Shown here piece after piece: positions 1,097-28,955 of a stretch of 28,955 nt of DNA. Under the pieces are notes generated by a model that saw only the letters and a program-made list of their open reading frames with translations, was not told the origin of the DNA and searched no databases. This stretch comes from a virus. The position numbers were made by a program, and so were the translations under genes. The stretch's first letter is position 1. The number at the start of each line of letters is the position of its first letter. The DNA is taken from positions 1 through 28,955 of the IMG/VR virus record IMGVR_UViG_3300014819_000048; one strand, given 5' to 3'.

Positions 1097-2488
1097 CTAA
1101 AGAATCTCAGCAGAAATTGTTGCCAATGCACTACGTTCTCCTTTAAGGAAGGTTACATGGCCGGAAATACTTTGTGATTTAAATCTTTCGATTGCTATTG
1201 AAAGGCCATTGCTTACTGAATCAACATAAGTGCTGTCAATTTGTTCAAGATCACCTGTGAGAACGATTTTAGTGTTTTCACCTACACGGGTAAGAATGGT
1301 TTTTATTTCATGTAAGTTTGTATTTTGAGCTTCATCTACGATGATGTAAGCGTTAGCAATTGAACGACCACGAATAAAGGTCATTGCTTGAACTTCAATA
1401 ATACCTTCATCAAAATAGCTTTGAAGAACTTGCTCATCAAATTTTGGTTGTTCTGCAACAATCTTTTTTTTCTTTGCGCCAGAACTTGATTCTTTTGGTT
1501 GTTCTGAAGCTCCTAAAAGGAAACGTAGGTTGTCTTTGATTGGAGCAAGCCAAGGCTCTAGTTTTTCGTTTAAATCGCCGGGAAGAAATCCTATGTCCTT
1601 GCCAACAGGCATAACTGGACGACAAATAACAAGCGAACGATATTTACGATGATTTAATACTTGTTCAAGTCCAGCATCGATAGCAAGAAGAGTTTTACCG
1701 CAACCGGATTTACCTGCAAGAGTTACAAGCTTAATTGTATCGTCGAACAAAAGATCACGGGCAAATTCTTGTTCTTTGTTACGAGGAGAAATCTTGCTTG
1801 AAATTTTTCCAAGAGGAAGAATTGGTTCTCCTTTTGCAATAAAACGAGCCATAGCAGATTGCTGACCATTTTTTAGAACAACAAACTGGTTTGGGTACAA
1901 ATCTTCTTCAATATCTTTTGGCAAAAAGAATTGCTCTTCATTTGAATAAAATTGTTTAACGATTACGTCTTCACGTTCAATAACTTTTACTCCTGAGTAT
2001 AAAGAGTTTACAGAAGTTGCAACATTGAACTTGCGATAATCTTCACATTTAATTCCCAGAGCCTGAGACTTTAGTCTTAAGATTGTATCACGGGTAACAA
2101 GAACAACATGTTCTTCTGTGTGTTTACTAATATAATTTATGCAGAATTGAGCAATGATGTTGTCACCGCTTTTCTTTTCTTGCATCTCCATAGGGAGATG
2201 ATGTGGTGTATGTTCTGGATATATGTCTTCAATAGACAATATTTTTAATGTTCCGAGGTTTTTTCCAAGTGGGATGCCAGCTTTAAAGTCTTTGTTGATT
2301 TTTGTTAAATCTGCGAGCTTACGCACTACTTCACGGGCATTGCGACCTACTTCATCTTGACGATCTTTGTGTCTATCAAGTTCTTCAAGAACAATTAAAG
2401 GAAGAACAAGATCATGTTCTTCAAAACCAAACAAACTGTTACTGTCAGAAAGCAAAACGTTTGTGTCGAGAATGTATGTTTTTTTCAT
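1097..2488 (-). CDS. phoH: PIN-domain PhoH-type ATPase
   Basis: This 463-residue protein matches the PhoH2 (PIN-PhoH) architecture. Residues 1-150 are a PIN domain (ILDTNVLL at 6-13 with Asp8, acidic residues in VLEELDRH, and LVTRDTILR near 130-138). Residues about 235-463 are the PhoH ATPase with Walker A GKSGCGKT (259-266), Walker B IIVDEAQN (382-389) and the TGDLEQID motif (411-418). Cellular PhoH2 proteins are RNA helicase/ribonucleases; PhoH is common in large phages, where its role is unsettled. A Lys/Ser-rich insert lies at about 330-345. The start at 2488 has AAGGA 6 nt upstream. A strong terminator (2509-2533) separates it from the upstream histone-like gene, so it needs its own promoter or readthrough. 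Confidence 0.95.
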   Translation of the reverse strand: MKKTYILDTNVLLSDSNSLFGFEEHDLVLPLIVLEELDRHKDRQDEVGRNAREVVRKLADLTKINKDFKAGIPLGKNLGTLKILSIEDIYPEHTPHHLPMEMQEKKSGDNIIAQFCINYISKHTEEHVVLVTRDTILRLKSQALGIKCEDYRKFNVATSVNSLYSGVKVIEREDVIVKQFYSNEEQFFLPKDIEEDLYPNQFVVLKNGQQSAMARFIAKGEPILPLGKISSKISPRNKEQEFARDLLFDDTIKLVTLAGKSGCGKTLLAIDAGLEQVLNHRKYRSLVICRPVMPVGKDIGFLPGDLNEKLEPWLAPIKDNLRFLLGASEQPKESSSGAKKKKIVAEQPKFDEQVLQSYFDEGIIEVQAMTFIRGRSIANAYIIVDEAQNTNLHEIKTILTRVGENTKIVLTGDLEQIDSTYVDSVSNGLSIAIERFKSQSISGHVTFLKGERSALATISAEIL

Positions 2489-2842: not shown

Positions 2843-3301
2843 TCAGTGTGATTGCTTCCAAAGATTGAATATCATTGAAGCAAATGCACCTGCGGCTGAC
2901 AAAGCTAGTGCCCAATATATTTTTGCTAAATTTGTACGAAGCTTAACAATGTAATTCAATTCTTCTAGTTGCGGACCAGCAATGGTTTCAATAGCTGATT
3001 TGAACTTTTTCAAGTCTTTGATTTCGTCTTCAACTGTTGGAATTATGTCGCACTTCTTGTTTAAATCTTTGATGTTTGTATCAAGCTTGGTTTCAATAAC
3101 TCTTACCCGAGAAAATAATCCATCCAAAGGATCATAAAGGGCTTCAGAAACTTTATCGAGCTTTTCTGTACTTTTATCTTGTTCGTCTTGAATATGCTCT
3201 ATCATAACATAGAGTTTTTCAAAACCACCATTAAGTGCAGCACTTTGTTCAACCTTTCTAACAAGGATTTCCAGTAATTCTCGTTCAGTATTTGTAGCCA
3301 T
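2843..3301 (-). CDS. Coiled-coil protein with C-terminal membrane anchor
   Basis: This 152-residue protein has a long charged helical region (about 1-120, heptad-like Leu/Ile spacing) and one hydrophobic segment near the C-terminus (YWALALSAAGAFASMIFNLW, about 128-147) followed by a short polar tail. The ending KLRTNLAKIYWALALSAA resembles conserved small membrane proteins of marine myoviruses, from memory only. The likely topology is a tail-anchored protein of the inner membrane. The ATG at 3301 has AAGGAG with 8-nt spacing. It is divergently oriented from the GroEL-like gene at 3349, sharing a 47-nt promoter region. Function unknown; a holin or membrane scaffold role is possible but unsupported. 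Confidence 0.75.
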   Translation of the reverse strand: MATNTERELLEILVRKVEQSAALNGGFEKLYVMIEHIQDEQDKSTEKLDKVSEALYDPLDGLFSRVRVIETKLDTNIKDLNKKCDIIPTVEDEIKDLKKFKSAIETIAGPQLEELNYIVKLRTNLAKIYWALALSAAGAFASMIFNLWKQSH

Positions 3302-3320: not shown

Positions 3321-3348
3321 AAGTATATGAATACTCAAAGGAAAATTC

Positions 3349-4740
3349 ATGAATTCAAATTCGTTTTATGAGAAAAATACCATACAAAAACATTTTATTT
3401 CTGCTGTTGAAAAAATTGAGTTTAACATCGATAAAATCAATTTTGCTATATCCAATCAAAACCAAACCTACCTACAGAAAAATTCTTACCAATTAATTTC
3501 ACAACTGCTAACGCCTAATAACTCATGGGAACGTATGCTTTATCAAGAGTTACTTGAAATGTGTTTTAAACTGGAACTAAAATGTCAATACAGTAGCCAT
3601 ATGTTTTTAAAAGCTTTTATAGCTTTGGCAAAAGAATATTCAAAGCAAGACAATCTTAAACATATGCAACTAGTGGAAGATAACCAAATAGAAGGAAGCA
3701 AGTACCTTAAAATTATTTTGGATACATGTTATCCGGCAACCGAAAAAGATATCAATTATTTGGTTGATAATATTTCTACTGACCATCTTGTTTCAGAAAC
3801 AATAAAACAAGCAACAAAATTGTCTGGCATTGAAGGTAATATTGTTGTTGAAGATTATAATGGTTCAAACATTGTTGTTGAACTTCAATTTGGATACAAT
3901 TTTAAAGTCAATCCCTTTAAGGGATTTATTCCTTCTTTCGGATCATGGATACGTTCAAATGCAAAAATATTGTTAGTTGATGGTTTGATTGAAAAAGTAT
4001 CTGAAATGGATAATATCCTAAGAAAAAGCTTTGATACAAAGCTTCCATTGATTATGGTTGCTCAAGGATTTTCTGAAGAAGTTATTGCTACTCTTCATGC
4101 AAACAATACCAGAGGTGGTTTTGATATCATGCCAATCAGATTAGAGCAATCATTAGACACACTTAACATGCTTAATGATATTGCTGCTGTGTCTGGATGT
4201 GATGTTGTTTCTTCTTTGAAAGGTGAAATGATTACATTTGTTGATTATGATTCTTTACCGACTATTGAAAAAGCAACCCTTACAAACGGTGTATTAACGA
4301 TAGAAAACAATAAAACTAGAAATCGAGTGCTTTCACATCTTGCATATCTTAATCAAAGACGTAAAGAACAAGCAGAAAACACAACTGTTTCAGATCTTGC
4401 AGATTTGACAACCAAACGTATTCAAAATTTGTTGGCGCACATTGTTAAAATAAACGTACCTAATGGTATGGCAAGGCAATATAAAGCATCATTAGATAAT
4501 GCTATTAGAGCTTGCAGAACGGCTTACACCTATGGCTATTGTAGTCCTAGCAAAATGAATTTAACTAACTTATCAAGTGAATGGAAAAAAATGCATCAAG
4601 CTATGACAAGTCAGCAAACAGATATTCCAGTGTCTAGCATTGGCTTGTATTTATCTGGATGGTATGCTGCTAGTTTAGCAGCAAGTTATTTTACTGCTGC
4701 TGGTGCTGTTGTATCAGCCGTTGATAATTGTGTTAGCTAG
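3349..4740 (+). CDS. Divergent GroEL-like chaperonin
   Basis: This 463-residue protein aligns by eye with GroEL (548 residues) from the intermediate domain onward. Residues 160-200 match the start of the apical domain (GNIVVEDYNGSN for GVITVEDGT). Residues 206-262 match the apical core (KILLVDGLIEKVSEM, then LPLIMVAQGFSEEVIATL, then ANNTRGGFDI). Residues 272-290 (LNMLNDIAAVSGCDVVSSL) match the GroEL block KAMLQDIATLTGGTVISEE. Residues 380-390 match the second intermediate helix, and 425-458 match the C-terminal equatorial helix. The ATPase signature GDGTTT is absent, the GroEL Asp398 position appears to be Asn384, and about 60 residues of the C-terminal equatorial domain are missing. It is likely a substrate-binding or GroEL-modifying protein rather than an ordinary ATP-driven chaperonin. 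SD AAAGGAAA precedes the ATG. The 3' end overlaps the convergent gene by 27 nt. Confidence 0.75.
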   Translation: MNSNSFYEKNTIQKHFISAVEKIEFNIDKINFAISNQNQTYLQKNSYQLISQLLTPNNSWERMLYQELLEMCFKLELKCQYSSHMFLKAFIALAKEYSKQDNLKHMQLVEDNQIEGSKYLKIILDTCYPATEKDINYLVDNISTDHLVSETIKQATKLSGIEGNIVVEDYNGSNIVVELQFGYNFKVNPFKGFIPSFGSWIRSNAKILLVDGLIEKVSEMDNILRKSFDTKLPLIMVAQGFSEEVIATLHANNTRGGFDIMPIRLEQSLDTLNMLNDIAAVSGCDVVSSLKGEMITFVDYDSLPTIEKATLTNGVLTIENNKTRNRVLSHLAYLNQRRKEQAENTTVSDLADLTTKRIQNLLAHIVKINVPNGMARQYKASLDNAIRACRTAYTYGYCSPSKMNLTNLSSEWKKMHQAMTSQQTDIPVSSIGLYLSGWYAASLAASYFTAAGAVVSAVDNCVS

Positions 4741-5307
4741 ATTTGTATGTACTTTGTTTGAAACATACAAACGGATGGATGGGGTATTCTCACAAAGATA
4801 TTTTAAACTTGAAAGTGGAAGTTTTGAAAGTTCTGTTGCTAGGTTTTTAATAACCGCATTTGAATTACCTTCAAGTAAGGTATAAGCTTGAGCTTTTTTG
4901 ATACAAAATTCTAGTAGTTGAACGGAATCGTTCTTATAAAGACTGTATAGACTTTTATCTTTACCAACTCTGTTAATTAACATTCCAGCGGCTTCATTAA
5001 CACATTTAGTTAATGATTCTGCGATGAAAGCATAGTTTATCATTGCAGCTTTAATTGCAGCAGGTTTAGCTTTACCTTCCAAAAGAACATTAGAAGTTTG
5101 TGAAATAAACATATAAAGAGTTGGAACATTGTTTTTGTAAAGTGCTGCAACTTCTTCTAGTTTTTCAATTTTTTCTGCTGCATTAACAGCTTCGTTGCTT
5201 TCTTTTAAGAAAACATCAAAAGGATATACACCTTTTTCAAGTAAGGCAACTCTGGCTTCCATTAATTTTTTTGCTTGATGCTTTTTATATGCCTTTTTTA
5301 TATCCAT
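4714..5307 (-). CDS. Helical protein of unknown function
   Basis: This 197-residue protein is not recognised. It is predicted almost entirely helical, with a basic N-terminus (MDIKKAYKKHQAKKLMEAR) and Ala/Leu-rich helices without a membrane segment or signal peptide. The start at 5307 has TGGAG with 6-nt spacing. Its last 9 codons overlap the end of the convergent GroEL-like gene, and an inverted repeat (4742-4771) lies in the overlap region. It faces a divergent plus-strand gene at 5397 across a short promoter region. No function is proposed. Confidence 0.7.
   Translation of the reverse strand: MDIKKAYKKHQAKKLMEARVALLEKGVYPFDVFLKESNEAVNAAEKIEKLEEVAALYKNNVPTLYMFISQTSNVLLEGKAKPAAIKAAMINYAFIAESLTKCVNEAAGMLINRVGKDKSLYSLYKNDSVQLLEFCIKKAQAYTLLEGNSNAVIKNLATELSKLPLSSLKYLCENTPSIRLYVSNKVHTNLANTIING
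4742..4771. repeat. Inverted repeat just after the GroEL-like stop
   Basis: TTTGTATGT (4742-4750) and ACATACAAA (4763-4771) form a 9-bp stem with a 12-nt loop, 2 nt after the GroEL-like stop codon and inside the convergent gene. Neither strand has a following T-run, so a classical terminator is not supported; it may still protect the mRNA 3' end. Confidence 0.35.
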
Positions 5308-5383: not shown

Positions 5384-5396
5384 GAGTGTGTTAAAA

Positions 5397-6077
5397 ATGA
5401 AAATCATACCCAAAAAATCTTTATCAATCGATGAAATGATGGAATTGGATAAAGACCAAAAGAAGGTTGTTAACCATAACAATGATAAAAAAACTGCTAA
5501 CAGTATTGAAAAAACTGAACCCGTTGCCAATCAAAAATATTATTTGCCTGTTTTGAACATCAATCACACACAAGAATGGCAAACAAAACCTTTATCTGAA
5601 AGAAAGCATTTTACAGATGAAATTGCAATGCAAACTTGTCTTGGAAATTGCTGTGGTGTTGAAGGATTAAAAGGTGCTTGTTGTCATTTAGATCCAATTG
5701 ATCTTGAACATGTACTTGGACCTGTAAGCGAGGAATGTATCAAAGACATTGTTAAATTTTTTAGGAAAAAAGGTTTAAATTATTCTCGTCAAGATATTGT
5801 AATTGATTATGAAGAAGGTAAGATAATCGGAGATACATTGTTTAAAGATGCACCAAACAACCAAATTTTTCATGAACCAAAAGCATATCCTATTTTACGT
5901 TTCCAAGCTCTTGGACCAAGATATTCATGTAAATTCATGAATCCACAAACGTATAAATGTCAGATTTATGAAGTTAGGCCAAAGATGTGTTCAACGTATT
6001 ATTGCAATTATATTACTACAAATTTTCTTGTAAAAACAAAAACAGCCCATCCAAATAGATGGCGCAAACTACGATAG
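5397..6077 (+). CDS. YkgJ-like cysteine-cluster protein
   Basis: This 226-residue protein (from the ATG at 5397; a GTG three codons upstream is less likely because it lies at the predicted transcription start) has the Cys arrangement of the YkgJ / CxxCxxCC family: C81, C85-C86 and C95-C96, then a second cluster in YSCKFMNPQTYKCQIYEVRP followed by KMCSTYYC. These proteins are thought to bind zinc or an Fe-S cluster; their reaction is not established. The first 50 residues are charged and probably disordered. No membrane segment is seen. The next gene follows after 13 nt, so both are probably co-transcribed from the promoter at 5356-5383. Confidence 0.75.
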   Translation: MKIIPKKSLSIDEMMELDKDQKKVVNHNNDKKTANSIEKTEPVANQKYYLPVLNINHTQEWQTKPLSERKHFTDEIAMQTCLGNCCGVEGLKGACCHLDPIDLEHVLGPVSEECIKDIVKFFRKKGLNYSRQDIVIDYEEGKIIGDTLFKDAPNNQIFHEPKAYPILRFQALGPRYSCKFMNPQTYKCQIYEVRPKMCSTYYCNYITTNFLVKTKTAHPNRWRKLR

Positions 6078-8857: not shown

Positions 8858-9673
8858 TCACTTGATTAATAAATCAATTGGACGAGACACCCATATACCA
8901 TTTACCTTACCAGAGGCTTTTAACGCTTTAACAGTGGCAGGACCGGGAACACCATCACAATCCTTATCTGCAAATCCTAAAGCCTTCTGGCGAGCCTTCC
9001 AAATGATTTTATCGTCATCGTTGTCAAACGCATATGTTTCATATCCAGCATTTTTAAGAGCTTGTTGAAGATATGGACCGGGATCACCATAACCACGATT
9101 TGTTGTTTGATGATAATGAGCATAAACACCAACAACATCTTTACCACAATTGCTTCCAGCAATACGCTTAATCACCCCTTTGGGTGGACAATTGTTTTTC
9201 ATGTCCCAAGGTATTTGACGCTGAATACCAAGTTTTGCTGTTAAAAAATCAATAAACTCTACGGCTTTAGCAATTTGCTCTTCATACAAATCACCATTGT
9301 CATGTTGAACTAATTCAAATCCACAAGTAAACGGATTAACACTTGATGCTTGCCAAGTATAAAATTTAGTTGGATCGTTTTGAACCAACCATTCACCGTT
9401 TAAATCACAGGTAAAGTCCCATGAAACTTGTCTTGTTGTGTTAACTTGATACTTTGCTTGAGCAATATCAATGCTTGTGTTTGGTCCTAAGCCGGGAAGA
9501 AGCTTGCCAAGCTTACCATGAATAGTGTGACAAACAATTCCACGCAACCATAAGCTTCTTGGATTTTTATTTGTTACTTCTTTTAATCCAAGTGTTTTAG
9601 CTTCTGGGTCTTGCCAAGAAATTGTTTTAACACCGGGGATATCTAACTTTTGTTCGTTGATAATAATTGACAT
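8858..9673 (-). CDS. N-acetylmuramoyl-L-alanine amidase (endolysin)
   Basis: This 271-residue protein fits the Amidase_2 (zinc amidase) family. Candidate zinc ligands and catalytic residues are His49 in IVCHTIHG, Glu120 in CGFELVQ, His186/His188 in VYAHYHQTTN and Asp197 in GYGDPGPY. A divergent peptidoglycan-binding domain follows (about 225-255, ARQKALGFADKDCDGVPGP). No signal peptide is seen. It cleaves the amide bond between muramic acid and L-alanine if the assignment is right. Its SD (TAGGAGG, 7 nt from the ATG) is fully paired in an 11-bp hairpin (9677-9711), which should restrict translation. With the gene at 7796 it gives the phage two cell-wall hydrolases. Confidence 0.85.
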   Translation of the reverse strand: MSIIINEQKLDIPGVKTISWQDPEAKTLGLKEVTNKNPRSLWLRGIVCHTIHGKLGKLLPGLGPNTSIDIAQAKYQVNTTRQVSWDFTCDLNGEWLVQNDPTKFYTWQASSVNPFTCGFELVQHDNGDLYEEQIAKAVEFIDFLTAKLGIQRQIPWDMKNNCPPKGVIKRIAGSNCGKDVVGVYAHYHQTTNRGYGDPGPYLQQALKNAGYETYAFDNDDDKIIWKARQKALGFADKDCDGVPGPATVKALKASGKVNGIWVSRPIDLLIK

Positions 9674-14044: not shown

Positions 14045-15139
14045 ATGGCAGCAGATGTTGTTATTGGTTTACAATATGGAGATGAAGGTAAAGGCAAAGT
14101 AGTTGATTATCTTGCCAGAAACTATGATTATGTGGTTAGATTTCATGGAGGTAACAACGCTGGACATACGCTTGTTGTAAATAACAATCGTATTGCTGTT
14201 CATGCTTTACCTTCTGGTATCTTGCATCCACAAGTTTGTAACGTTATCGCAAATGGATGTGTGATTGATTTAGATCAACTTGCAAAAGAAATTAATCAGC
14301 ATGGTGGGCCTTCTGCATTTACTGGTAGATTGTTTGTATCTAACGCAGCACACGTTATTCTTCCATCAGCACGTATTGTAGACCAAGAAACAGGTGGTAA
14401 GATCGGTACAACAGGAAAAGGTATTGGTCCAACCTATGCTGCCAAAATGAACAGAACAGGTTTAAGATTTGAAGATATCTTAAATGGCAGCATGAGTTCA
14501 GTGTATTCTACAGATACAATTGATACTGTAAGACCATTTATTACCAATACTGTTAAACTTCTTCAAATGGCAGAAAAAAGCGGAGCTTCTATCCTTCTTG
14601 AAGGAGCACAAGGATCTTTGCTTGATATTGATCATGGCACATATCCATATGTTACAAGTTCTAATTGTACTGTTGGAGGTGCATTAACAGGAACAGGTCT
14701 TAACCATAAGTCTATCCGTAAAGTTATTGGAGTTATGAAAGCTTATACAACAAGAGTTGGAGAAGGACCGTTTCCAACAGAACAGCCAAATGAAATTGGG
14801 GATAAAATCCGTCAAATTGGTGGTGAGTTTGGCACAACAACAGGAAGAAACCGACGTTGTGGGTGGTTGAATTTAACAGAATTAAGGAACGCTTGTGCTA
14901 TAAATGGTGTTGACTATTTGGTGGTTACAAAGCTAGATGTACTAGATACGTTTGAAGATATTTCTATCGAACCTGCCGGTGTAGTTAAAGGCTGGAATAC
15001 TTCAACAAAAGGTTTGCGAAATAAACACAAACTTCCAACAAATGCCGTAAAATATCTTAACATGGCAACAAAATCACTTAATGCAGAATTAAAATATGTC
15101 TCTACATCCCCAGAAAGAGAGGACATGATTGTGCTATGA
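14045..15139 (+). CDS. purA: Adenylosuccinate synthetase
   Basis: This 364-residue enzyme catalyses GTP-dependent joining of IMP and aspartate to adenylosuccinate. Visible signatures are GLQYGDEGKGK (8-18) with catalytic Asp13, GGNNAGHTL (35-43) with His41, GTTGKGIGPTYAAKMNRTG, EGAQGSLLDIDHGTYPYVTS and TTRVGEGPFPTE, then GTTTGRNRRCGWL and VTKLDVLD. At 364 residues it is shorter than bacterial PurA (about 430) and nearer archaeal forms. Asp13 is kept, unlike the Ser substitution in PurZ of 2-aminoadenine phages, so ordinary PurA chemistry is expected. The SD AAGGAG has 6-nt spacing. Its stop overlaps the next start (ATGA). No clear promoter is seen. Confidence 0.95.
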   Translation: MAADVVIGLQYGDEGKGKVVDYLARNYDYVVRFHGGNNAGHTLVVNNNRIAVHALPSGILHPQVCNVIANGCVIDLDQLAKEINQHGGPSAFTGRLFVSNAAHVILPSARIVDQETGGKIGTTGKGIGPTYAAKMNRTGLRFEDILNGSMSSVYSTDTIDTVRPFITNTVKLLQMAEKSGASILLEGAQGSLLDIDHGTYPYVTSSNCTVGGALTGTGLNHKSIRKVIGVMKAYTTRVGEGPFPTEQPNEIGDKIRQIGGEFGTTTGRNRRCGWLNLTELRNACAINGVDYLVVTKLDVLDTFEDISIEPAGVVKGWNTSTKGLRNKHKLPTNAVKYLNMATKSLNAELKYVSTSPEREDMIVL

Positions 15140-15438: not shown

Positions 15439-16056
15439 ATGGCAACTAGTGAACAATTATATGAAATTCTTAAGCAACACGAAACATATGTGGTTTCAAA
15501 TGGTAAGAAAGGTAAAGTTGCAAACCTAAATGGGGTTTACGTAGAAAATGCTGTTGTTGAAAACATGAATTTGCAAGGTATTTTTTTCAATGACGCAAAA
15601 CTAACGAATGCAAAGTTTATCAATACCAATTTTTCTTATGGTACTTTTTCCTATGCTTATCTTAAAGATGCATCCTTTGTTGGATGTAACCTAGAAAAAA
15701 CAAGATTTGATTTTTCAACTCTTTTTTATGCACAATTTGAAGACACAAATTGTACAAAGACTTCATTTACGGAAGCACAACTAACCGGAGCTAGGTTTAG
15801 TAACTGTACGCTCGATAATGTAAATTTTTATAGTGCAATTCTAAAAGAAACAATTCTTCCAAAAAAAGATCTAAAGCTTGGTAAGCTTTATAAACTTACA
15901 TCTTATCCATCATTCATCTCAATAAAGAAAATTCATCCATTGGTTTGTTTGGTTGGTGTAAACTGGCATACAATTGATATCCTTGATGGAGAGGGTATAC
16001 TTCATAAGAGTCTCCCCAACTGGATCAAATATTCAATGCAAGAAGTAGAAACATGA
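15439..16056 (+). CDS. Pentapeptide-repeat protein with C-terminal GKLY module
   Basis: This 205-residue protein has about 20 pentapeptide repeats (residues 30-145, pattern A/C-x-L/F-x-x, for example NLQGIFFNDAKLTNAKF). They are predicted to fold as a right-handed beta-helix, which in some families mimics DNA. The C-terminal 60 residues start with KLGKLYKLTSYPSF and resemble the two small proteins at 16150 and 20157, suggesting a shared SH3-like module. The start has no SD and lies 6 nt after a -10 box, so it is probably leaderless. DNA mimicry, for example gyrase inhibition, is a possibility only. The stop overlaps the next tiny gene (ATGA). Confidence 0.7.
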   Translation: MATSEQLYEILKQHETYVVSNGKKGKVANLNGVYVENAVVENMNLQGIFFNDAKLTNAKFINTNFSYGTFSYAYLKDASFVGCNLEKTRFDFSTLFYAQFEDTNCTKTSFTEAQLTGARFSNCTLDNVNFYSAILKETILPKKDLKLGKLYKLTSYPSFISIKKIHPLVCLVGVNWHTIDILDGEGILHKSLPNWIKYSMQEVET

Positions 16057-24740: not shown

Positions 24741-27700
24741 TCAGCCACCAACGAAGTTTTCACGGTTGGTAACAACAAAATCAATGGTAAAGAATTCCAA
24801 GCTTGTTGTTGGGATTAGGAAAATCTTACCACGCATTGTTTTGTTATCTAGATCTGCTTGGGTTGTGGTTGTTGTGTCAATTGCGACTCTGTATTGTTCC
24901 ACACCACCAGCAGATTGATAACGTGCAAGTATTGGTTGAACAGCAGCATTAAACGCACTCAAGGTTGTGAATGTTGCTGGTTCAAAAAGGAAGCGTGTAC
25001 CAACTTGACGTACTTCACGACGAATTGCAATAAGCAATCTACGAACGTTAACACGATTAAGCAAACTGTCTTTGTTAAGCAAGGTTTTTTGACCCCAAAC
25101 AACTGGTCCAACTCCTTGTTTGGAAAGCAAGAGGTTCAATCTCGCCACATAAAGGGTGTCTGCGTTGGCTTGATTTAGTGCAACAGCGAAATCTGTTACA
25201 TTTGAAAGAGTACCTCTTGTAAAGCCTGCGGGAGCATTAAATGGTTGACCAACTGTATCATTTTTAGCGTATGCACCAAGAACAGCAACAGATGGTGGCA
25301 TTTTTTCATAAACAGTGCCGTTATCCAAACGAATGTTAACGTCTGGGAAATAAGCAGCAGCAAAGCTGCTGTTTACCCCACGATTAACAAACTGTTGTGC
25401 TGTTTGTGAAACGTTTACAGTTGTATAAGAACCAGTTAGATCGTTTGCATTAGAATCATATTGTTCTGGGTCCATGATATAGAAGCAATCGAAACGATCA
25501 TTTTCTACAGCGTTGATTGCCGTGTCAGTTACGTAACGAACACGAATGCCGGGGATTGTAAGAAGTTGAATGCTTACATCATTAACATCAGAAATAACAT
25601 TGATTGCTTTCAAGTAGCTTTGTACAGTTGGACCGTTTGTTAGACCACGATCTGTGCGAGTAATTTCTTGAGAAACGGCTGCGTTCTTAAGATAACGTGT
25701 ATCTGGATTAAAGATACGAGTGCCATCGAACCCACGTTCAAGATAAAAGCTAAATTTAGCTAGTTTTTGCACTGATGCATTTTCAACAAGATCATCAACT
25801 GAAAGAGCCCTTGTTTTTGTTGCATTGTCAGAAGCAACATTTCCTGTACGCACATAGCTCCAACTTAAAAGTGCTGTTGTGCTTGTATCTGGTACGTTTC
25901 CACTACCTGTTACAATCTTAATCTTTTCTAGAGAGAAAAGGTTGTTGTTAAACAAATCTGAATCAATAATGCCGTTTGCTGTTGTGGTTGCTGAACCATT
26001 ATTATCAAACACTGCTGGTTGAACATATGTTGAACCTTCAAGGTTTGGGAAGTATGAGTTATAACCAAAAATGCTTGGATTAAAGATAGAGCTACCGTTT
26101 GGATCGGACAAACTTGTTATGTTTTGGAATTGAACACCCCAATACAACCCTGTGTCAACACCAGAAGAAGCAGCAATTTTTTTAAGGTTCAAGCGCATCG
26201 GAATAGGTGGTTGTGAAGCATTATAAAGTGGTACTCCTCCACCTGCGCCACCGGCAAGAGCAGAAAAGTATGGGAATGATGGATTTAGAAGATCGCCTTG
26301 TTTGATATTATAAAGAGAGCTTGAACCTTGTGTTACAAGGTGCTGCGGTCCACGGAAACCAAAAGGCACTGCTGATGGATCAAGTTCGCCAGAATCAACA
26401 ATATCAGCAACTTCAACACGAACAAATCTTGAGTTAACTGTATAATCACCAACTGTTGTTACTTTTTGGGAATCTACGTCTGTATCAAAGTTAAAGAAAG
26501 TGTGTATGGTTCCAATCTTACGAGCGATATAATTTGGTGAAGTTGGATCAAGTGAGCAGTTTGTATATGTTTCCAAAGCTCCCTCGTTATCCAAACCATT
26601 AAGTCTACGAATTTCAACACCAAATGTGCCATATGGTTGCGTTGCAGTACCGGGTTGAATATTGATAATAGAAACTCTGATTTGGGTGTTGCTTATTTCA
26701 CCATCAGATAGATGGTGGAAACGGAAAAGATTAACTGGAACCCCACCAAACCCTTGTGAAATTACCCAAGGTGAGAAAGCATGACCGTAACGATCTTGAA
26801 AGTTTTCAAAGTTTGGTGTGATGCTGCTTCCGATATTTGAAGTATGTGTTGCATTTGAACCAGAACTTGGAACAATGAATGCAATGTTTTGTTTGTTACC
26901 ATAAGCAGAACCCGAATTAGAAACAATTATACCCGAACCAGTTGGTACTGCAAGAGCAGAATAAACATCATAACCTGCATACAACAAGTGCCCAGCTTCT
27001 TGTGTTTTAAGGGGATCTGTATTAAAAACGTTTCTGAAATAATCAACTGCTTGTGGATCAAAACTTGCAGTGATTACGTTTGGATAACGTGTATCTGTTC
27101 CCTTGTGACCGTTAAGGATCATAACAAAGTTTTGTTGACCATTTAAAAGATCAACTGAACCTGTGAATCCACCAGAGAATGCTGTTTCAGTGGCTACAAA
27201 GTTTGAAGCTGGTGCATCAGAAGCTTGTGCTGCTGATGACAAACGAAGAACAACCCCAGATGGAGCAAACAAAACACCACGTACAATTGGAACTGATGTT
27301 GTTGAAGTTTGCAAGCTAGCATCAGAGAATATAGATGAGCCTACTGATTCACTCATAAAGCAACCAAGCATATACACAGAGCCAGTTACACCACCAGCAT
27401 TTGCATAAATGTTATTGCCGAGAGCACCACCACTTCCACTTGGTTGTTGAGAACCAACAACATAACCAGCACCAGCAACAATACCATCCCCTTGTCTTGC
27501 ACTGCCACTACCAGCACCAAGAACTCTTACTTGCATGAGTGGTACACCAGTATTACCAAACCATTGTCTTGCAGAAAGATAACCTAGTGGGGTATTTGTG
27601 TTAACATCACCAAATATAGAAATATATTGTGTCAAGCTTGTTGCCATTGTAGGAACAAATGCTGGTCCTTGAACAGTGGGTGAAATTACACAAGCTGGTA

Positions 27701-27776
27701 CTCCTGTGGGAGTTCTTACAACTGGTTGGCTGATATTAAATTCTCTTGCTTGTACGCCGGGGCTCAATAGTGCCAT
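24741..27776 (-). CDS. Tail sheath protein (T4 gp18-like), oversized
   Basis: This 1011-residue protein begins MALLSPGVQAREFNISQPVV, like the N-termini of T4-type sheath proteins, and ends with the conserved sheath C-terminal domain (about 700-1011; landmarks FNAPAGFTRGTLSNV, RVNVRRLLIAIRREVRQVG, TRFLFEPAT and SLEFFTIDFVVTN). T4 gp18 is about 660 residues, so some 350 extra residues are inserted in the middle as Gly/Ser/Asn-rich beta sequence, probably surface-exposed domains. Sheath subunits contract around the tube to drive infection. SD GGAG is 7 nt before the ATG, and TATAAATT (27799-27792), like a T4 late promoter, lies 15 nt upstream of the ATG. The tube gene follows after 55 nt. A paralog lies just upstream. 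Confidence 0.9.
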   Translation of the reverse strand: MALLSPGVQAREFNISQPVVRTPTGVPACVISPTVQGPAFVPTMATSLTQYISIFGDVNTNTPLGYLSARQWFGNTGVPLMQVRVLGAGSGSARQGDGIVAGAGYVVGSQQPSGSGGALGNNIYANAGGVTGSVYMLGCFMSESVGSSIFSDASLQTSTTSVPIVRGVLFAPSGVVLRLSSAAQASDAPASNFVATETAFSGGFTGSVDLLNGQQNFVMILNGHKGTDTRYPNVITASFDPQAVDYFRNVFNTDPLKTQEAGHLLYAGYDVYSALAVPTGSGIIVSNSGSAYGNKQNIAFIVPSSGSNATHTSNIGSSITPNFENFQDRYGHAFSPWVISQGFGGVPVNLFRFHHLSDGEISNTQIRVSIINIQPGTATQPYGTFGVEIRRLNGLDNEGALETYTNCSLDPTSPNYIARKIGTIHTFFNFDTDVDSQKVTTVGDYTVNSRFVRVEVADIVDSGELDPSAVPFGFRGPQHLVTQGSSSLYNIKQGDLLNPSFPYFSALAGGAGGGVPLYNASQPPIPMRLNLKKIAASSGVDTGLYWGVQFQNITSLSDPNGSSIFNPSIFGYNSYFPNLEGSTYVQPAVFDNNGSATTTANGIIDSDLFNNNLFSLEKIKIVTGSGNVPDTSTTALLSWSYVRTGNVASDNATKTRALSVDDLVENASVQKLAKFSFYLERGFDGTRIFNPDTRYLKNAAVSQEITRTDRGLTNGPTVQSYLKAINVISDVNDVSIQLLTIPGIRVRYVTDTAINAVENDRFDCFYIMDPEQYDSNANDLTGSYTTVNVSQTAQQFVNRGVNSSFAAAYFPDVNIRLDNGTVYEKMPPSVAVLGAYAKNDTVGQPFNAPAGFTRGTLSNVTDFAVALNQANADTLYVARLNLLLSKQGVGPVVWGQKTLLNKDSLLNRVNVRRLLIAIRREVRQVGTRFLFEPATFTTLSAFNAAVQPILARYQSAGGVEQYRVAIDTTTTTQADLDNKTMRGKIFLIPTTSLEFFTIDFVVTNRENFVGG

Positions 27777-27900: not shown

Positions 27901-28955
27901 TTAAATCGTAACTCCGCTTGGTAGAATAACGAAATCCATAACAACATATTCTACTGCTCTTGTTGGTAGTACACGGATTTGTGCGTTCATACGATTGCTA
28001 TTAACGTCTTCAGCAGTATTGTTACGATCATCACAGATAACTGCGAAGCGTTCAATACCTTGTTGGGATTGCACTGTTGCCAGAACCAAACTTGCTTCAG
28101 TGACAAATCGTGTGCGAAGGGTTGGAGTGTTTTGCTCAAACAACAAACGGTTACCGATTGCAACAATCTGACGCTTGATTTCTAACAACATTCTTTTAAC
28201 ATTGATAGATTCCAAAGCGTTTTCTGCTAGTTGTAGTGTGTTTTGTGAGAAGAACACATAGTTGGCACCGGGGAACTTAACAATTGGGTTAATGTTGGCA
28301 TCATACATTGTGTTCCGATCTGTTTGATTAAGTCTAATAGCAGTATTGATAACGAAGTTTAAACTACCACGATCAAACCCTGCTGGTGCAAACCAAGGGA
28401 ATCTAACACGGTCATTATATGACAATGCAGATACAGCAGCGATAGTTGCTGGAACTGTTACTCTGCGGGTGTTAACAGTATCATCCATAATAATATTTGG
28501 GAAGTATGCTGCACCACCATTGTTATCCAATGCACGATTAATGAATGCATTTGATGTTTTGTTGATGGAAACATATCTTCCAGATTCACCATCGAAAATA
28601 CGCACATCATCTTTGTCATATGGTTGAATATCAAGAAGATAAAAACTCAAACCATAAGCTGTATTTTTTTCTAGTGCATAATTTGTAACGAGTGGATCAC
28701 GTTGACCGGGAACAGTAAGAATATTATTATTTGCAAGACTTGGGTTGGTTGCAATATCAAGTGCTGTACGATATGCAATAACGTTTTGGTTAGAAGTACC
28801 AACGCCTGTGTAATTTGTTGCTGTTGGAGCACCGGGGGAAACATAGCTTGCGTTTGCAAGACCGTATACTCCACCCGCACCAACTTCTGTAGATGTTGAT
28901 TGATCAGTAAAACGAGATGCTTGCTTGTCAAAAATATTCACACCATCCCAACCAC
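27901..28955 (-). CDS. Second tail sheath paralog, N-terminus cut by window edge
   Basis: The frame is open to the right edge; GWDG precedes the GTG at 28941, so that GTG is an internal Val, not a start, and the gene continues outside the window. The visible 351 residues share the sheath C-terminal domain with the 1011-residue gene: AAYFPNI for AAYFPDV, WFAPAGFDRGSLNFV for FNAPAGFTRGTLSNV, and ESINVKRMLLEIKRQIVAIG for LNRVNVRRLLIAIRREVRQV, then NRLLFEQNT. They are therefore paralogs, not a split gene. It ends before its own terminator (27822-27855). The two sheath genes may build one mixed tail or alternative tails. Confidence 0.9.
   Translation of the reverse strand, partial: GWDGVNIFDKQASRFTDQSTSTEVGAGGVYGLANASYVSPGAPTATNYTGVGTSNQNVIAYRTALDIATNPSLANNNILTVPGQRDPLVTNYALEKNTAYGLSFYLLDIQPYDKDDVRIFDGESGRYVSINKTSNAFINRALDNNGGAAYFPNIIMDDTVNTRRVTVPATIAAVSALSYNDRVRFPWFAPAGFDRGSLNFVINTAIRLNQTDRNTMYDANINPIVKFPGANYVFFSQNTLQLAENALESINVKRMLLEIKRQIVAIGNRLLFEQNTPTLRTRFVTEASLVLATVQSQQGIERFAVICDDRNNTAEDVNSNRMNAQIRVLPTRAVEYVVMDFVILPSGVTI

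Follow-up and report, generated by a model that had tools for sequence, protein, structure and literature searches.

Chaperonins are defined by ATP-driven folding. Among phage chaperonins, those of EL and AR9 use ATP and that of OBP has been described as ATP-dependent (PMC7185714, PMC9598537), and the EL protein keeps endolysin from aggregating in the absence of ATP as well (PMC9598537). Outside phages, the fold has been put to other uses. BBS6, BBS10 and BBS12 combine a chaperonin fold with an eroded ATP-hydrolysis motif and serve as adaptors for an intact chaperonin (PMC5534436, PMC2846930). For example, BBS6 and BBS12 bridge BBS7 to CCT in animals (PMC5534436); these chaperonin-like BBS proteins, which retain a Gly-Pro ATP-binding dipeptide (PMC2846930), are believed to be without folding activity now (PMC5534436). 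In chlamydiae, an intact GroEL1 is accompanied by the paralogues GroEL2 and GroEL3, whose ATP- and GroES-binding regions have diverged (PMC1892554), and chloroplast chaperonins are hetero-oligomers (PMC5904260).

The locus that we compare with these systems lies in a viral window, the whole stretch of 28,955 nucleotides analysed here, and encodes a 463-aa protein that has kept the chaperonin body and lost its ATP site. The gene and its parts are:

3337-3342, plus strand: ribosome-binding site AAAGGA, read from the sequence
3349-4740, plus strand: ATPase-less chaperonin-like gene, 463 aa, from homology, profiles and predicted fold
3352-3723, plus strand: N-terminal equatorial part, residues 2-125, with TLGP and TKDG loops lost or altered, from alignment
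3586-3603, plus strand: QYSSHM (residues 80-85) replacing the catalytic GDGTTT (GroEL 86-91), from alignment
3724-3888, plus strand: N-terminal intermediate part, residues 126-180, from domain mapping
3889-4443, plus strand: apical domain, residues 181-365, the family's best conserved part, from family identity by domain
4066-4089, plus strand: signature GFSEEVIA, residues 240-247, at GroEL helix I (GroEL 253-260), from family conservation
4444-4530, plus strand: C-terminal intermediate part, residues 366-394, with N384 (4498-4500) at GroEL D398, from alignment
4531-4737, plus strand: shortened C-terminal equatorial part, residues 395-463, with GGG, N479 and D495 absent, from alignment

The open reading frame starts with ATG behind a good ribosome-binding site; promoter and terminator scans around it were uninformative in this AT-rich region. 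A phmmer search of the PDB with the 463-aa protein returned GroEL/Cpn60/Hsp60 chains only (best, 1iok, E 7.6e-13), and the first-pass annotation's proposal of GroEL homology is borne out by profile searches, which match PHROGs phrog_5725 ‘chaperonin groEL’ (9.8e-23), NCBIfam GroEL models (down to 1.7e-19) and, with a family profile, chaperonins at E 3e-29. Against canonical chaperonins the protein scores 55.5 bits, compared with 10.1 bits at most for 300 shuffled sequences and 6.6 for the reversed sequence. Group I homology is accompanied by the equatorial-intermediate-apical-intermediate-equatorial domain order, a colinear alignment with GroEL spans about 350 residues, and the apical and intermediate landmarks align as had been noticed at first reading. 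The TIGR02348 score, 56 bits, lies under the curated threshold of 582, and Pfam PF00118 matches neither this protein nor any of 18 family members (0/18), so Pfam-based annotation would overlook such chaperonins. Weak matches to the Pfam families DUF1204, Peptidase_A4 and Rad26-like, and to Cas1b (E 0.003) and ZorA (E 0.008) in PADLOC, were at chance level and were dropped.

Relatives of the protein are confined, in our searches, to one phage lineage. As a single-sequence query it found no relatives in IMG/VR, and an alignment that included normal GroELs retrieved canonical GroELs only. A family profile was built from orthologues in sister phages (51-62% identity, plus one at 30%), which were reached via the window's 1011-aa tail sheath; it identified 20 further IMG/VR loci with the ATPase-less gene in the same neighbourhood, on contigs of up to 320 kb, and a broader second scan added no members to these 20. 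The 84,980 bacterial and archaeal genomes searched held no member of the family, 50,697 phage records held ordinary GroELs only, and a search for the host of the lineage returned no identity. One candidate motif-less member, L057, was rejected: it is a canonical GroEL interrupted by a single in-frame stop. The gene is under purifying selection: frames are full-length and open in the other 20 loci, except one truncated at a contig end, and NG86 dN/dS is about 0.10-0.17 in most usable pairs (dS 0.27-1.2), and hence the gene is not decaying.

Loss of the ATP site distinguishes this family from described phage chaperonins. None of TLGP, D52, D87 in GDGTTT, D398, GGG (GroEL 414-416), N479 and D495 is intact in the 463-aa protein. 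The first-pass annotation had correctly read GDGTTT as missing, its position being occupied by QYSSHM, and had correctly placed Asn384 at D398, in a gap-free segment whose anchor is G410/G396; its estimate that the C-terminal equatorial part is about 60 residues short agrees with about 62 aligned residues, compared with about 115 in GroEL. When 53 chaperonins are aligned together, all 18 representatives of the family lack G32, P33, D87, D398, N479 and D495 and have lost GGG, whereas D52, D87 and D398 are kept in all 35 other chaperonins, which include the intact partners discussed below and the proteins of phages PBS1, PALS_2, Miami, PDCC-1 and MIZ-Pa99. Because the family profile aligns to GroEL 58-410 without large gaps, the losses of D87 and D398 are in-place substitutions and not misalignment; the alignment of the N-terminal TLGP/TKDG region is less certain than that of the D87 and D398 stretches. 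The position of D52 reads N45 in the window's protein, and a K44-D45 pair, present in several family members and not conserved, may be a remnant of GroEL K51-D52. The 463-aa protein is thus almost certainly not a GroEL-type ATPase, and the earlier suggestion of a reduced, ATP-independent chaperonin is strongly supported, on sequence evidence, for the whole conserved family.

In mean values over the same six phages, the ATPase-less protein is most conserved in its apical domain (identity 0.46, compared with 0.58 in the intact partner GroEL) and much less so in the equatorial-N (0.27 versus 0.65), intermediate-N (0.33 versus 0.67), intermediate-C (0.34 versus 0.88) and equatorial-C parts (0.24 versus 0.55). 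Conservation is therefore inverted, the ATPase-less protein being best kept in its apical domain and the partner around its ATPase. Of 22 family-invariant residues, 13 are apical, including three in the helix I signature GFSEE (F241, E243 and E244). In GroEL, the apical groove that binds GroES and clients is formed by Y199, Y203, F204, L234, L237, L259, V263 and V264. L234 is replaced by D or E in 18/18 family members and F204 by K, N or R in 17/18, V263 is H or K in most, and Y199 is gapped or changed; L237 is kept and L259 is I or V. The hydrophobic groove typical of the GroEL family is thus altered in the ATPase-less protein, whereas the partner GroELs retain a largely GroEL-type groove. 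Because the groove has been rewritten in the best-conserved domain, a specific partner, and not general hydrophobic chains or GroES, is the most likely reason for the retention of the apical domain. The best explanation, judging from the sequences, is that the gene encodes a relative of group I chaperonins that would neither bind nor hydrolyse ATP in the manner of GroEL and would be maintained for its apical domain.

Sister phages also encode an intact Cpn60 of 555-581 aa that keeps TMGPSG/TMGPKG, TKDG and GDGTTT/GDGTST. It accompanies the ATPase-less gene in 4/4 records of at least 200 kb and 6/8 of at least 100 kb, these records all being linear and without completeness estimates; in two 129-kb relatives that have the ATPase-less gene and no partner on the record, the absence is probably due to incomplete records. 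Three fragmentary relatives come from metagenomes (3300011116, 3300016665, 3300016667) in which a different contig bears a partner-clade gene. The window, a 29-kb fragment, has no partner GroEL of its own, so we infer the pairing from relatives. At its right end it shares 99.99% identity with a contig of 3300023179; that contig also contains a partner gene (L170), which plausibly belongs to the window's phage. No GroES was found in nine sister records. The two families each form a single clade (100/100) and branch in the same order across six phages, as is expected from long shared vertical inheritance. Origin of the ATPase-less gene by duplication of the partner inside the lineage is tentatively disfavoured (p-AU 0.007), its long branch calling for caution; grouping with PBS1/PALS2/Mx1 gave p-AU 0.034, in a tree with long branches and without EL, OBP and AR9. 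In two sister phages, the intact partner (L171:702-3461 and L172:657-3443) is split exactly within the catalytic motif, GDG|TTT, by an in-frame intein of about 340 aa, with junctions AGDG|PQPLYAKVLTPTGW on the N-side and THN|TTTATV on the C-side.

We tentatively favour a model in which the non-hydrolysing chaperonin is an adaptor or holdase that works with the phage's own GroEL. Its apical domain would capture one particular protein or assembly intermediate of the phage, the captured client would be presented to the intact phage GroEL, and that enzyme would then perform the ATP-driven work. An adaptor that co-assembles with host GroEL was one suggestion of the first-pass annotation and is partly supported: the phage's own intact GroEL is the likelier partner, co-assembly itself is hypothetical, and the canonical GroES/substrate groove is altered. 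Tail sheath had been named as a client, a proposal whose sole basis is that both genes occur in the same genomes. The window itself has two adjacent tail-sheath-like genes (24741-27776 and 27901-28941), one of 1011 aa and the second near the window end. Several observations count against the adaptor model. The lost hydrophobic groove residues could mean that unfolded chains are not bound at all, the window and two 129-kb relatives have no partner on their records, and where the partner gene does occur, it lies tens of kilobases from the ATPase-less gene and not next to it. More broadly, and with somewhat greater reserve, these giant phages may possess a two-component system in which an intact GroEL is joined by an ATPase-dead subunit whose rewritten apical domain selects clients, following a logic like that of BBS6/BBS12 and CCT.

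The ATPase-less protein might instead enter the phage GroEL ring as a subunit, making the ring asymmetric, with a special apical face and some positions that do not hydrolyse ATP. Structure prediction bears on this idea. A single-chain AF2 model of the 463-aa protein from the 18-sequence alignment (pLDDT 83.7) retains the apical and intermediate domains, as the first-pass annotation had anticipated, and the distant member L151 is predicted to have the same fold (pLDDT 82.8); in Foldseek searches, full-length group I chaperonins match both models (E 2e-22 and 1e-26, respectively). GroEL ring contacts use N- and C-terminal edge strands, and such strands are present in both models (residues 4-8 or 4-9 and 452-456 or 461-466), which makes mixed or homo-ring formation possible. 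A short stem-loop hairpin in the L151 model and the precedent of hetero-oligomeric chloroplast chaperonins (PMC5904260) point the same way. By contrast, conservation is lowest (24-27%) in the equatorial domain, the site of ring contacts, which has lost about 50 residues from its C-terminal part, and the shortened stem-loop has low model confidence (pLDDT about 46-63); a mixed ring seems unlikely. Both models are nearer to GroES-bound subunits with elevated apical domains (best TM about 0.67-0.73) than to apo GroEL (about 0.5); this comparison, made on these two models, is only a hint of an open, GroES-bound-like conformation.

A further alternative is an independent, ATP-independent holdase or assembly scaffold, acting alone or as a homo-oligomer with no need of another chaperonin. 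The ATP-free activity of the EL chaperonin against endolysin aggregation (PMC9598537) offers a precedent, and the conserved neighbourhood of the ATPase-less gene does not include the partner gene. Such a stand-alone role would nevertheless leave co-retention with an intact partner unexplained, and the classical hydrophobic groove that would serve general holding has been altered; we consider it improbable.

Linkage to the genes that do surround the ATPase-less gene raises another alternative. The relevant neighbours in the window are:

1097-2488, minus strand: PhoH2 (PIN plus PhoH ATPase), a neighbour in 20/20 loci
2843-3301, minus strand: 152-aa coiled-coil protein with a likely C-terminal membrane helix, divergently transcribed, a neighbour in 20/20 loci
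4714-5307, minus strand: 197-aa protein, adjoining the ATPase-less gene in 9 loci, the window's own subclade
5388-6077, plus strand: 229-aa cysteine-rich protein (CxxCxxCC-type domain in relatives), in 18/20 loci

The core order of PhoH2 (minus), the 152-aa protein (minus) and the ATPase-less gene (plus) is kept in all 20 loci, followed downstream in most by the 229-aa protein, an RNase H-like protein and small genes. A CxxCxxCC zinc/iron-chelating domain is matched by 9/12 members of the 229-aa protein's family, which has no relative in the 50,697 phage records. The chaperonin fold could have been recruited to a non-chaperone job, such as that of a virion or host-takeover protein acting with the membrane protein or PhoH2. 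The invariant linkage to those two genes, the fast divergence of the equatorial part and the belief that BBS proteins have lost folding activity (PMC5534436) would all fit, but the apical domain is still GroEL-like and colinearity with GroEL extends over about 350 residues, and we consider this possibility less probable still. Finally, a decaying pseudogene or metagenome-assembly artefact, which missing motifs alone could suggest, is extremely improbable given full-length frames in 20 other loci (one contig-end truncation excepted), dN/dS of about 0.10-0.17, conserved synteny and 18 diverse members.

Other features of these genomes deserve mention. PhoH2 of three relatives (L142:6488-9115, L136:6488-9115 and L137:4026-6674) contains an in-frame insert with no stop (876-883 codons open), as would fit an intein. 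In L138 (15791-17713), the window's endolysin-like gene of 271 aa (8858-9673) has an orthologue in two pieces with stops between them, possibly through an intron or a duplicated fragment. The window also encodes a 364-aa adenylosuccinate synthetase (14045-15139), shorter than the usual PurA and scoring 437 bits for PurA versus 145 for PurZ, and a 205-aa pentapeptide-repeat protein (15439-16056).

A group I chaperonin family that lacks the entire ATP site and is nonetheless under purifying selection, in phages with an intact GroEL as well, would indicate that a chaperonin body can be retained for binding alone; the family offers a compact, testable model of how client-specific adaptors of chaperonins might work beyond eukaryotes. 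Within the scope of open-licence papers, where we found no ATPase-less phage chaperonin, the family is new with respect to described ATP-using phage chaperonins. It resembles group I GroEL/Cpn60 in its three-domain order, colinearity over GroEL 58-410 and predicted fold, and differs from them in having no ATP-site residues, a half-size C-terminal equatorial part, an altered groove and no PF00118 match. Like the chaperonins of EL, OBP and AR9, it is divergent, GroEL-like, carried by large phages and without a known phage GroES. The use of ATP by those three proteins, which the first-pass annotation had stated, agrees with the literature (PMC7185714, PMC9598537). Among the chaperonins aligned here, those of MIZ-Pa99, a phage of about the genome size of EL, of PBS1, which is AR9-related, and of PALS_2 represent relatives of that group. 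These three keep D52, D87 and D398, in contrast to the ATPase-less protein, and in the tree the ATPase-less family forms its own clade (100/100). The chlamydial GroEL3 model (NF038369) gives a weak match over residues 4-396, 46.7 bits against a cut-off of 600, and chlamydial GroEL2 and GroEL3 are cellular genes, whereas the phage family is absent from the cellular genomes searched. Group II (CCT) ancestry is not supported, the best PDB and Foldseek matches being to group I, and the BBS proteins, which belong to the eukaryotic group II lineage, are analogues in logic and not close relatives. Nevertheless, BBS6 and BBS12 acting with CCT provide the nearest precedent, in logic, for the proposed cooperation between an ATPase-less chaperonin and an intact phage GroEL.
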